Shown here: piece by piece, positions 26,279-57,981 of the stretch
How the letters are laid out: each line of letters begins with the position of its first letter
How positions within the stretch are numbered: the first letter of the stretch is position 1
Source: Haloprofundus halobius
GTDB taxonomy: Archaea > Halobacteriota > Halobacteria > Halobacteriales > Haloferacaceae
Assembly (NCBI RefSeq): GCF_020097835.1
Contig: NZ_CP083666.1
Coordinates: 2,356,001-2,420,000 of the forward strand
DNA length: 64,000 nt
Direction of reading: 5' to 3'
Position numbers and translations under genes: made by a program
The notes under the pieces: model-generated
Databases searched by the model: none
Told to the model about the DNA's origin: nothing
Seen by the model: only the letters and a program-made list of their open reading frames with translations

Positions 26279-26350
26279 GGGCTCGTAGATCAGTGGCAGA
26301 TCGCTTCCTTCGCAAGGAAGAGGCCCGGGGTTCAAATCCCCGCGAGTCCA
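26279..26350 (+). tRNA. tRNA-Ala (anticodon CGC), integration target
   Basis: 72 nt: acceptor GGGCTCG/CGAGTCC with the G3-U70 pair that marks alanine tRNAs, anticodon stem CTTCC/GGAAG with loop TTCGCAA (CGC), T arm CGGGG-TTCAAAT-CCCCG and discriminator A. Its 3' 14 bases form most of the attachment core of the element that follows; the gene is restored intact at the junction. Confidence 0.96.
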
Positions 26351-26351
26351 T
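26337..26351 (+). other. attL: 15-bp attachment core in tRNA-Ala 3' end
   Basis: TCCCCGCGAGTCCAT at 26337-26351 is repeated exactly and in the same direction at 57967-57981, 47 bp after the integrase gene. This is the expected footprint of tyrosine-integrase insertion into a tRNA 3' end. Confidence 0.9.
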
Positions 26352-48355: not shown

Positions 48356-48390
48356 GTTTGGTACAGAAGCCATCCTTTGAGGTACTAAAC
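48356..48390. promoter_or_regulatory. GTAC-containing inverted repeat upstream of 48392
   Basis: GTTTGGTAC (48356-48364) and GTACTAAAC (48382-48390) are inverted copies with one mismatch, 17 bp apart, one base before the next ATG. Probably an operator. Confidence 0.45.
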
Positions 48391-48391
48391 G

Positions 48392-48643
48392 ATGAGTAGC
48401 TGGATTGGAGGTGCGACATTCGTCGCCATCGTTCTCGTCTTCGCCATCCTCTTCGGTATGGGCATCACTCTCGAAGTCGCGTCGAGTCCGGAGATGAAGA
48501 ACTTCATGACGGAGAGCCGAGAGTGGTGCGAGCAGCGGGACGGTAATCTCTGGATCGAACGGGCTGTCGGGTCGGACGGTGGTCTCTACTGTGAACTGCC
48601 GAACGGGACGTTCGTCCAGATGAAGGAGGTAATCGATGACTGA
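48392..48643 (+). CDS. Small single-span membrane protein with external Cys pair
   Basis: 83 aa. One N-terminal helix (FVAIVLVFAILFGMGITLEV), then a short exposed domain with REWCEQRDGNLW and YCELPNGTF, where two Cys could pair. Unknown family. Directly preceded by an inverted repeat. Confidence 0.6.
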   Translation: MSSWIGGATFVAIVLVFAILFGMGITLEVASSPEMKNFMTESREWCEQRDGNLWIERAVGSDGGLYCELPNGTFVQMKEVIDD

Positions 48644-48681
48644 GAGCGTTCGAGTAACCCACCTATCCCAAACACCCCTAC

Positions 48682-48712
48682 ATAGTACTTAATATAGTAC
48701 TGAGAATAGTAC
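48682..48712. repeat. Three ATAGTAC iterons with exact 12-bp period
   Basis: ATAGTAC occurs at 48682-48688, 48694-48700 and 48706-48712, so the period is exactly 12 bp. The array ends 11 bp before the AbrB-like gene at 48724. It could be an operator for that protein or the recombination site of the serine recombinase that follows. Confidence 0.7.
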
Positions 48713-48723
48713 GGACCGAACCA

Positions 48724-48879
48724 ATGCCGAAAACGTCGATCAACAAGGCTGGCGAACGTCACTTCAAAACGACCGTTCCAATCGCGCTCGTCGAGGCGTT
48801 CGACCTTGAGGGCAAGCGCTTCGACTGGACCGTCAAGAACGGAACCACTCTCGAACTCCGAGTCGTCGACGATGACTGA
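48724..48879 (+). CDS. 51-aa AbrB/MazE-like DNA-binding protein
   Basis: TSINKAGERHFKTTVPIALVEAFDL then WTVKNGTTLELRVVDDD has the swapped-hairpin AbrB pattern (turn, 'TVPxxL', final strand). It overlaps the serine recombinase by 8 bp and lies just after the ATAGTAC array, so autoregulation is likely. Confidence 0.65.
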   Translation: MPKTSINKAGERHFKTTVPIALVEAFDLEGKRFDWTVKNGTTLELRVVDDD

Positions 48880-49534
48880 CCACGCAGTCGCTTACCTCCG
48901 ACTCTCCCAAGACGGGAAGTCACTCGAACGTCAGCAGCGCGATGTCGAGGACTACGCCGACGAGCACGGCCTCGGCCTCGTGAGAACCTATAACGAGGGG
49001 AAGCGTTCCTCCGGGTTCGACGATGATCGCCCCGAGTACCAAGCGCTCCTTGAGTACGTTGACCGCGACCACGTCGACGCGGTCATCGTCCCGAACCTCT
49101 CCCGGCTCTCGCGCGACCGGAAGGAACGCCTTCGGCTCCTCCTCGATCTCGACGCCGCCGGAGTCGACCTTCACTCGTACGAACTCGGCCGCGCCGTCGA
49201 CCTCGACGACGACTGGGAACTCGTTCAGCAGTCGATTCAGGCAACCGCCGACGACGTCCAGAAGCGGAAGGAAATCGAGCGCTCGAAGCGCGCCACCGCC
49301 GAGCGCATCGCGAACGGCTTCGACCACGGTCGTCCTCCGCGCGGACTCCAGTTCGACGGCGCCGGTGAGTACTGGGTTCCCGACGACGAGTTCGAAACCA
49401 TCGTCGAGGCTATCCAGATGAAGGAGTCGGGCGCGTCGTTCCGGGTCGTCGCCGACGAGACTGGTCTTCCGCTCACGACGGTTTACGATGCTGTCAAACG
49501 GAAAAACACCTACCTGAGACACGTCGACGATTAG
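48872..49534 (+). CDS. Serine recombinase (resolvase/invertase type)
   Basis: 220 aa from ATG 48872. N-terminal catalytic domain: AVAYLRLSQDGKSLERQQRD with the nucleophile Ser near residue 12, GKRSSGFDDDRPEYQALLEYV, and VIVPNLSRLSRDRKERLRLL with the Arg cluster. A C-terminal helix-turn-helix follows (SFRVVADETGLPLTTVYDAVKRK). It may invert or resolve DNA of the element; no matching site pair was found apart from the ATAGTAC array. Confidence 0.85.
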   Translation: MTDHAVAYLRLSQDGKSLERQQRDVEDYADEHGLGLVRTYNEGKRSSGFDDDRPEYQALLEYVDRDHVDAVIVPNLSRLSRDRKERLRLLLDLDAAGVDLHSYELGRAVDLDDDWELVQQSIQATADDVQKRKEIERSKRATAERIANGFDHGRPPRGLQFDGAGEYWVPDDEFETIVEAIQMKESGASFRVVADETGLPLTTVYDAVKRKNTYLRHVDD

Positions 49535-56810: not shown

Positions 56811-56893
56811 GCGACGTCGAACCCGAACCATCGGGGGTAACCCTCGGGTCGACGGTCCGCAACCGCGACGGTCACGAGGTCGACTGTGAGTGA
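56807..56893 (+). CDS. 28-aa coupled micro-ORF before the integrase
   Basis: GTG 56807 overlaps the PadR stop by 4 bp, and the TGA (56891-56893) overlaps the integrase GTG (56886). Polar peptide with VTLGSTVRNRDGHEVDCE. It may be a real small partner or only relay translation. Confidence 0.45.
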   Translation: MSDVEPEPSGVTLGSTVRNRDGHEVDCE

Positions 56894-57920
56894 CGAACTG
56901 ATTCCACTCACCCCGGCCGAGGGCGTCGAGCGCTTCCTGGCGCACCGGAAGCCTAGTGTGGCGAAGTCGACGTTCCACAACAACAAGACCGTCCTCGAGC
57001 ACTTCCTCGCGTGGTGCCGTGAGGACGAGGTCGACAACCTGAATGACATCAACGGCCGTTTGATGGCCGATTTCGTCACGTGGCGACGAGAGCAGGTCGA
57101 GCCGATCACGCTACAGAAGAACCTCTCGGCGGTCCGCGAGGCGCTGGGGTACTGGGCCGACATCGATGCCGTCCAGGAGGGACTCCGCGAGCGCGTTCAC
57201 GCGCCGGAGGTTCCCGACGGGTCGGAAGCTCGGGACATCAAGGTGTCTCCGGAGCAGGCGAGGGAGATCGTTTCGTACCTCGACCGGTTCCAGTACGCAT
57301 CTCGCGACCACGTCATCATCGGGATGCTGTGGCGGACGTGTATGCGCCTCGGTGCGCTGCGGTCCATCGACGTCGACGATCTCCGGCCGGAGAAGCACGC
57401 GGTGTACCTTCGGCACCGACCTCAGTCTGAGACGCCGCTCAAGAATGGACAGAAGAGTGAGCGTTGGGTGTGGCTCGGTCCGACGCTCTCGCAGATCGTC
57501 GAGGACTACGTCGAGCATCACCGCGAGGACGTTAAAGACGACCACGGTCGGAAGCCGCTTCTGTCGAGCCGGTTCGGTCGGCTGAGCGAGACGGCGATTC
57601 GGAACTGCTGCTACCGGATGACGCAGCCGTGTGTTCTCGAGGAGTGTCCGCACGGGCGCGAGCCGCGGACGTGTGAGGCCGTCGGTGAGCAGAGTCTCCC
57701 GAGTAAGTGCCCGTCGTCGAGGTCGCCGCACGCGTTCCGCCGCGGAGCGATTACGGACCATCTGAATCGCGGTGTTCCACCGGAGGTCGTGAGCGAGCGT
57801 GCGGACGTCGGCCTCGATGTGCTGTACAAGCACTACGACGCGCGTCGGCCGGATCAGAAGATGGACGTTCGAGTTGAGGAGTTCTTGAAGAGTAAATTCG
57901 ATGATAAATCTAGGCAATAA
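56886..57920 (+). CDS. int: Tyrosine integrase (SNJ2-type)
   Basis: 344 aa, GTG start. N-terminal SAM-like core-binding domain (SVAKSTFHNNKTVLEHFLAW). Catalytic residues: Arg near 154 (RTCMRLGAL), HxxR near 282 (SPHAFRRGAI) and Tyr near 317 (VLYKHYD). A Cys-rich insertion (CCYRMTQPCVLEECPHG) sits between. It lies 46 bp from attR and is unsplit by integration, as in the SNJ2-type group of haloarchaeal integrases. Integrates the element into tRNA-Ala. Confidence 0.92.
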   Translation: MSDELIPLTPAEGVERFLAHRKPSVAKSTFHNNKTVLEHFLAWCREDEVDNLNDINGRLMADFVTWRREQVEPITLQKNLSAVREALGYWADIDAVQEGLRERVHAPEVPDGSEARDIKVSPEQAREIVSYLDRFQYASRDHVIIGMLWRTCMRLGALRSIDVDDLRPEKHAVYLRHRPQSETPLKNGQKSERWVWLGPTLSQIVEDYVEHHREDVKDDHGRKPLLSSRFGRLSETAIRNCCYRMTQPCVLEECPHGREPRTCEAVGEQSLPSKCPSSRSPHAFRRGAITDHLNRGVPPEVVSERADVGLDVLYKHYDARRPDQKMDVRVEEFLKSKFDDKSRQ

Positions 57921-57966: not shown

Positions 57967-57981
57967 TCCCCGCGAGTCCAT
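57967..57981 (+). other. attR: 15-bp attachment core
   Basis: Exact direct copy of 26337-26351. Beyond it the chromosome resumes. The last bases of the element before it show no further tRNA sequence. Confidence 0.88.

Follow-up and report, generated by a model that had tools for sequence, protein, structure and literature searches.

Related recombination systems

The closest described counterpart of the locus considered here is the res/TnpR system of Tn3-family elements (gamma-delta, Tn3), in which a small serine recombinase with an N-terminal catalytic domain and a C-terminal helix-turn-helix (HTH) is encoded next to a palindromic crossover site that has a 2-bp centre and lies just upstream, with regulatory DNA and promoter overlapping the site region. 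The locus of Haloprofundus halobius follows the same plan, with two differences. Tn3 res has the resolvase-bound sites II and III, in place of which the archaeal module has three 8-bp palindromes spaced 12 bp apart; and, unlike Tn3 res, the module has an AbrB-like gene of its own, which forms part of the operon and lies between the site and the recombinase gene.

Three other systems invite comparison. Toxin-antitoxin pairs are described beside Tn3 res sites, with one AbrB/MazE-PIN case, TnPsy42, in the available text of PMC7157771. Such pairs resemble the module in having an antitoxin-fold gene beside a resolution site and a resolvase; however, as presented in that text, they include a toxin and are placed on the side of site I that faces away from tnpR, whereas the AbrB-like gene of the module lies between site and recombinase. 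Since the operon partner of the AbrB-like gene is the recombinase, we have ruled out a toxin-antitoxin pair. In the integrase operon of SNJ2 (pleolipoviruses), as perhaps in the module, the recombinase of a haloarchaeal element is helped by small co-transcribed proteins, but in the sections of PMC8371274 dealing with it the enzyme is a tyrosine integrase and the helpers are coiled-coil and MarR-like rather than AbrB-like proteins. Finally, the serine transposons of the IS607 family exchange over a 2-bp GG, according to the relevant part of PMC6188088, and many palindromes of the module also have GG or CC centres; IS607 TnpA, though, is described there as having an N-terminal DNA-binding domain and little target specificity, in contrast to the C-terminal HTH and long palindromic site of the module.

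In the open-licence PubMed Central literature, as far as its texts were accessible, we found no description of an AbrB-serine recombinase pair in archaea. A serine recombinase beside its own site is familiar; what appears to be new is an AbrB-like partner whose three-iteron operator would take the place of the resolvase accessory sites.

The locus

The window, that is, the whole 64,000-nucleotide stretch of DNA that was analysed, crosses an integrated element of ~31.6 kb (26279-57981), and the array and gene pair lie inside it (Table 1). We interpret the locus as a self-regulated site-specific recombination module, resolvase/res-like and carried on plasmids and integrated elements, in which the array would be the operator of an AbrB-like autorepressor and the palindrome the crossover site of the recombinase; judged from sequence, this reading has a probability of roughly two in three. 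It builds on what the loci plainly contain, namely an array, a palindrome, a fixed geometry, a gene pair and a switching of junctions.

Table 1. Coordinates of the features of the module and of the integrated element around it (window positions)
Feature	Position	Strand	Remarks
tRNA-Ala(CGC)	26279-26350		Integrated element
15-bp direct repeat of tRNA 3' end	26337-26351 and 57967-57981		
DDE transposase	46349		Integrated element
Dyad, candidate crossover site (site-I-like)	48645..48676	+	AGCGTTCGAGTAACCCACCTATCCCAAACACC; weight matrix, MAFFT alignment of 17 loci
Iteron 1, ATAGTAC	48682..48688	+	Family motif TAGNNCTA at 48683-48690
TATA-like TTAATATA	48689..48696	+	Read from sequence and family consensus ATTAG.ACTAAgT.tAG..CTA; candidate core promoter
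Iteron 2, ATAGTAC	48694..48700	+	Family motif at 48695-48702
Iteron 3, ATAGTAC	48706..48712	+	Family motif at 48707-48714, less palindromic
51-aa AbrB/MazE-like protein	48724..48879	+	Fold model and solved-fold matches; predicted DNA-binding autoregulator
220-aa small serine recombinase	48872..49534	+	PF00239, HTH; start codon overlaps abrB-like stop
orc1/cdc6-like gene	53784		Integrated element; 4.3 kb right of module
Tyrosine integrase	56886-57920		Inside integrated element

The AbrB-like protein and the serine recombinase

The two ORFs lie where the original prediction had placed them; of its two functional labels, serine recombinase is correct and AbrB-like has support. On its own, the 51-aa protein matches no Pfam or NCBIfam family, whereas 11 of its 16 aligned relatives match PF04014. 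Its monomer model (mean pLDDT 87.8) shows beta-beta-alpha-beta-beta, the order found in AbrB, and its best-ranked solved folds, which include MazE, SpoVT, AbrB and C68 of the archaeal virus-plasmid pSSVx, all fall in one superfamily, at individual scores that are modest and below the decisive level of the tool (Foldseek E from 0.55, probability up to 0.95; Z 4.8-5.9). The predicted fold and the PF04014 matches of the relatives together support the term AbrB-like. In predicted fold, the protein appears to resemble the swapped-hairpin proteins of the AbrB/MazE/SpoVT group, C68 included; unlike that group, the AbrB-like proteins of the module are stand-alone, ~50-66 aa long and paired with a serine recombinase.

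The recombinase matches PF00239 at residues 5-149 (2.1e-23) and, below the cut-off, HTH_23 at residues 179-210 of its 220 aa, and so has the N-terminal PF00239 domain, C-terminal HTH and size (within ~180-240 aa) of a small serine recombinase. Gamma-delta resolvase is its nearest relative by sequence in the PDB (6.4e-7), and its PHROG match is to integrase/DNA invertase; phages and the viral contigs searched gave no match. A large serine integrase (400 aa or more, with recombinase and zinc-ribbon domains) was ruled out given the 220-aa length and the presence of PF00239 and HTH only. An IS607 transposon was also ruled out, as the catalytic domain begins at residue 5 and the IS607 NCBIfam model scores 28 bits against a cut-off of 110.

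The iteron array and its conservation

The three copies of ATAGTAC, separated by the spacers TTAAT and TGAGA, are the only occurrences of this 7-mer in the window. Their exact 12-bp spacing, the observation from which the original prediction started, is firmly established: a 12-bp triple with at most three mismatches is seen a single time in the window and never in 100 shuffles, the array is the sole exact 7-mer found three times at an equal spacing of 8-20 bp (0 in five base shuffles), and the mismatch-free doublet is unique to this locus in the 3.95-Mb genome. The TATA-like TTAATATA lies between iterons 1 and 2 and overlaps them, ~31 bp upstream of the start codon, a distance in keeping with transcripts that have a short leader or none, as is common in haloarchaea.

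Relatives of the AbrB-like protein are present in 37 of the 392 genomes of the order, and those of the recombinase (E<=1e-25) in 14 of the 170 genomes of the family. Of 49 loci, 48 have a serine recombinase no more than 2.2 kb downstream (the exception being L087), as judged with a profile built from 12 of these loci. The order is palindrome, ~25 bp, three ~8-bp palindromic iterons (mostly TAGNNCTA), 51-aa AbrB-like gene and overlapping ~220-aa recombinase gene. Of 47 oriented homologous loci, 39 (33 of 40 when nonredundant) have an array score of at least 13/18, a threshold reached by less than 1% of 8,200 shuffles (99th percentile 11, maximum 14), and the array starts at -39 to -41 in all but one of the 33 nonredundant loci that pass. 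The set of 47 omits L152 (same context as L135); L022, L049 and L051, which have other or two-domain AbrB-like partners and whose arrays are unscored; L243, L244, L247 and L248, which were added later and scored separately; and L173, L177 and L180, together with AbrB matches for which no locus was retrieved.

The spacing is better conserved than the letters. Over 41 oriented loci, the best TAGNNCTA trio at 12-bp spacing averages 15.7/18, compared with at most 12.4 at the other spacings from 7 to 24. A motif-free measure of three-way self-similarity peaks at period 12 across all loci (17.5/24 vs at most 9.7 elsewhere) and again among 13 divergent loci (14.8 vs at most 10.3). Where a subfamily differs in its AbrB sequence, the 12-bp triple is retained but the motif is another one, TAACGTTA-like in L223 and L048, and TAACTGTTA-like in L224, outside the haloarchaeal families. 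Such variation would be expected of regulators that each recognise an operator of their own, and a motif that differs between AbrB subfamilies points to the AbrB-like protein as the ligand of the iterons. Since geometry, spacing and position are kept while bases vary, the array is probably under selection for protein binding, as had been proposed at the outset, and its retention upstream of homologous gene pairs passes the conservation check suggested at that time. One might still regard the array as a chance repeat, or as pure promoter sequence with no binding protein, for it overlaps an AT-rich core-promoter region; however, the shuffles and the persistence of the array despite varying bases make this hardly credible.

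The eight loci below the threshold include L047, L050/L141, L245 and the Geoglobus locus L221, where gene order is the same and the palindrome scores 9/11 but the array is not significant (11/18, self-similarity p=0.38). In L243 and L244, which have identical AbrB-recombinase loci, neither array nor palindrome was found. In Geoglobus sp. UBA235 (L182) the module gene order adjoins an MCM gene that is itself a divergent extra copy in that genome, so that the comparison yielded no empty target site. The genome that holds the window carries a second AbrB-like/serine recombinase pair at G000:C1:2987147-2987954 (L021, L040, L140), with its own palindrome and a weaker array (13/18).

The upstream palindrome

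Missing from the original prediction was a family palindrome of ~26 bp, with two arms of ~11-12 bp around an asymmetric 2-bp centre near -60. As in crossover sites of the Tn3 type, it is an 11+2+11 palindrome beside the recombinase operon, with GG, CC, TG or CA at the centre; examples are TTCGAGAAACC-GG-GGTTTCTCGAA in L100 (with a CC centre in L101) and TCCCACTACCC-TG-GGGTTCCGGGA in L147. The copy in the window is degenerate as a palindrome yet clearly homologous to the family site. It is the top weight-matrix match of the window at 26.7 bits, using a matrix built without the window, and the next unrelated match reaches 8.6; a generic palindrome scan, which took another frame, gave it 5/11 arm matches. 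In the alignment, the left arm is conserved even where the flanks are unrelated. A palindrome-like stretch inside the recombinase gene (49491-49522) is weak (10.4 vs a null maximum of 8.8) and was dropped, as was an opposite-strand candidate at -3079 in L082, behind which no module could be read.

The distance from palindrome to iteron 1 is 25-26 bp in 27 of 34 loci, which were picked mostly for an array score of at least 13 and of which five have a weak palindrome in that scan. Such a layout raises the question of whether the iterons could be accessory sites, equivalent to res II/III and bound by the serine recombinase instead of the AbrB-like protein. Resolvase dimer sites are ~28 bp long, and 8-bp palindromes at 12-bp spacing would be too tight for them. 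In addition, Tn3-type accessory sites II and III have the same arms as the crossover site, whereas the iterons (TAGNNCTA) are unlike the palindrome arms expected for the same recombinase. Thus, even though the nearly constant distance and the placement between crossover site and recombinase gene fit the Tn3 res layout, as given in the accessible part of PMC7157771, we hold recombinase-bound iterons to be improbable. The array was initially thought to be either an operator or a recombination site. Operator is the better half of that proposal; as a recombination site the array is probably off by one feature, given that exchange maps to the separate palindrome ~25 bp further upstream.

Switching of the left flank

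Among closely related modules (at least 85% identical), left-flank similarity is lost at the palindrome, between -83 and -60, in 15 of 24 pairs; of the remaining nine, seven have a longer stretch of left flank in common and two break slightly beyond this interval (L085/L087 at -89 and L050/L141 at -87). In L050/L141 the palindrome is itself displaced, with its centre at -74 instead of -60, and the shift of both break and palindrome indicates that the break follows the palindrome, not the gene. L146 and L147 are 97% identical from -74 to +1609 and have different left flanks. Flank A occurs with GTGTCCCACTACCC-GG in L143, L145 and L146, and flank B with GCGTCCCACTACCC-TG in L144 and L147; the left arm and first centre base therefore go with the flank, and the array and genes stay with the module. 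In L100/L101 the left flank also changes at the palindrome, with the right side homologous from -75 to +4273.

Two side observations can be added. L100 and L135, set against L101 and L134, are the same element in two different surroundings: inserts of ~1.5 to 5 kb separate a conserved segment from the palindrome, and the palindrome centre reads GG in one of them and CC in the rest. At the right-hand limit of similarity, a similar motif around CGTGCTGAATACA is seen at +883 in L093 and L097 and at +1331 in L143 and L144.

According to the available text of PMC7157771, exchange between transposons at the site-I dinucleotide of Tn3 res has given rise to hybrid elements, which means that a resolvase-like enzyme can leave a junction trace of this kind. 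Flank searches in plasmids found no empty target site, and matrix and motif scans of 17 loci (7-18 kb), eight right-hand stretches (19-40 kb) and three further stretches (30-32 kb) found no convincing second palindrome or attR; the exchange reaction is consequently deduced from the junctions alone, and left-flank switching by itself is no proof that the recombinase of the module made them. A small IS-like transposon with two fixed ends was rejected, as the left ends are sharp at the palindrome and the right ends range from ~+800 to +4270 with no common terminus.

Plasmids, integrated elements and neighbours

Three complete circular plasmids also carry the module. One of them, pCBA1220-05 (14.6 kb), has a P4-type primase; on pKBTZ03_58 (58.6 kb), ParA and an AbrB/PIN pair lie within ~6 kb of the module; and pKBTZ03_437 (43.8 kb) has both orc1/cdc6 and ParA. 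Halobacterium salinarum KBTZ03 and Haloarchaeobius sp. FL176 are strains in which more than one module occurs. Each of the three plasmids, when scanned, has one strong palindrome, the second-best matches of 26 (with shuffle maxima in brackets) being 19 (16) for pKBTZ03_58, 17 (17) for pKBTZ03_437 and 17 (15) for pCBA1220-05. Replication or partition iterons of the Rep or ParR type are also short direct repeats about one helical turn apart, the window has an orc1/cdc6 gene 4.3 kb to the right, and module plasmids carry ParA. The array, however, precedes the AbrB-recombinase pair rather than replication or partition genes and stays with the module when flanks change, and we consider such a role very unlikely.

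A further module, L095, lies in DNA of Halorubrum tebenquichense that, judged by eye, is pleolipovirus-like (betapleolipovirus-like). In two relatives the same slot, beside spike-like genes, presumably holds another small serine recombinase (G142) or a tyrosine-recombinase-like protein (G170), all named by eye. Across L126, L127 and L095, three types of recombinase occupy this slot of the pleolipovirus-like family, and two of the types were named by eye.

These contexts bear on whether the module resolves or integrates. Under the latter view, the recombinase would integrate the element, the palindrome would be attP in the free form and attL in the integrated one, and the array would be an operator or arm site for an AbrB-like accessory protein. 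The switch of left flank at a palindrome whose right side stays homologous for several kb (L100/L101) would fit integration, and the slot shared with G170 and G142 (both named by eye) points the same way, the tyrosine-recombinase-like protein favouring an integrase. On the other hand, the stretches scanned hold no second palindrome or attR, the left arm is conserved in unrelated flanks, and the single strong site on circular plasmids favours a resolvase. So does the tyrosine integrase of the window element, which, with its tRNA-Ala repeat, makes the serine recombinase unnecessary for integration of that element. We therefore regard an integration module as possible but unlikely.

Two kinds of neighbouring repeat deserve mention. 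Arrays of ~30-bp repeats at ~66-bp spacing, probably CRISPR, lie beside the modules of L138 (-5700 to -180) and L094 (+1070 to +1430). In the window, the GTAC inverted repeat that had been pointed out at 48356-48390 does exist (~7/8 arm bases match, by eye), but a tie to the module was not found: it is no copy of the family palindrome, scoring -4.2 bits and ranking 174 of 127,938 window positions with the weight matrix. Of the 392 genomes of the order that were searched, the other 391 hold no relative of the 83-aa ORF beside it (48392-48643). On the grounds of this score and of the adjacent gene without relatives, integron-like cassettes bounded by repeated palindromes were rejected.

Proposed mechanism and significance

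To return to the self-regulated, resolvase-like module, the conserved layout suggests that AbrB-like dimers would sit next to one another on the three palindromic iterons, spaced by about one turn of the helix. As the iterons straddle the TATA-like stretch, bound protein would block the core promoter; by covering the TATA-like element it may repress the two-gene operon, and autorepression is the simplest role that the sequence offers for the AbrB-like protein. The recombinase, to go by the junctions, would act at the palindrome and cut around its 2-bp centre, so that DNA on the left is exchanged there and the operon remains with the right half. On plasmids and integrated elements the enzyme would serve as a resolvase, and occasional exchange between elements would yield the swapped left flanks, a step suggested by context and proposed with less assurance. 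AbrB-like protein bound beside the palindrome may also help to assemble or steer the recombination complex.

A bolder version makes the AbrB-like protein on the iterons, beyond repression, a dedicated architectural partner of antitoxin fold that licenses the serine recombinase at the adjacent palindrome, and the palindrome an exchange hub that swaps the left-side DNA of archaeal plasmids and proviruses in an integron-like manner, from haloarchaea to Archaeoglobales; we think this rather doubtful.

For those who wish to pursue the system experimentally, the module offers a crossover candidate, a candidate operator and a two-protein system, available on small plasmids such as pCBA1220-05, and it might give a recombination tool for high salt. 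For the haloarchaea themselves, such a module could explain the exchange of blocks of DNA among their plasmids and proviruses.
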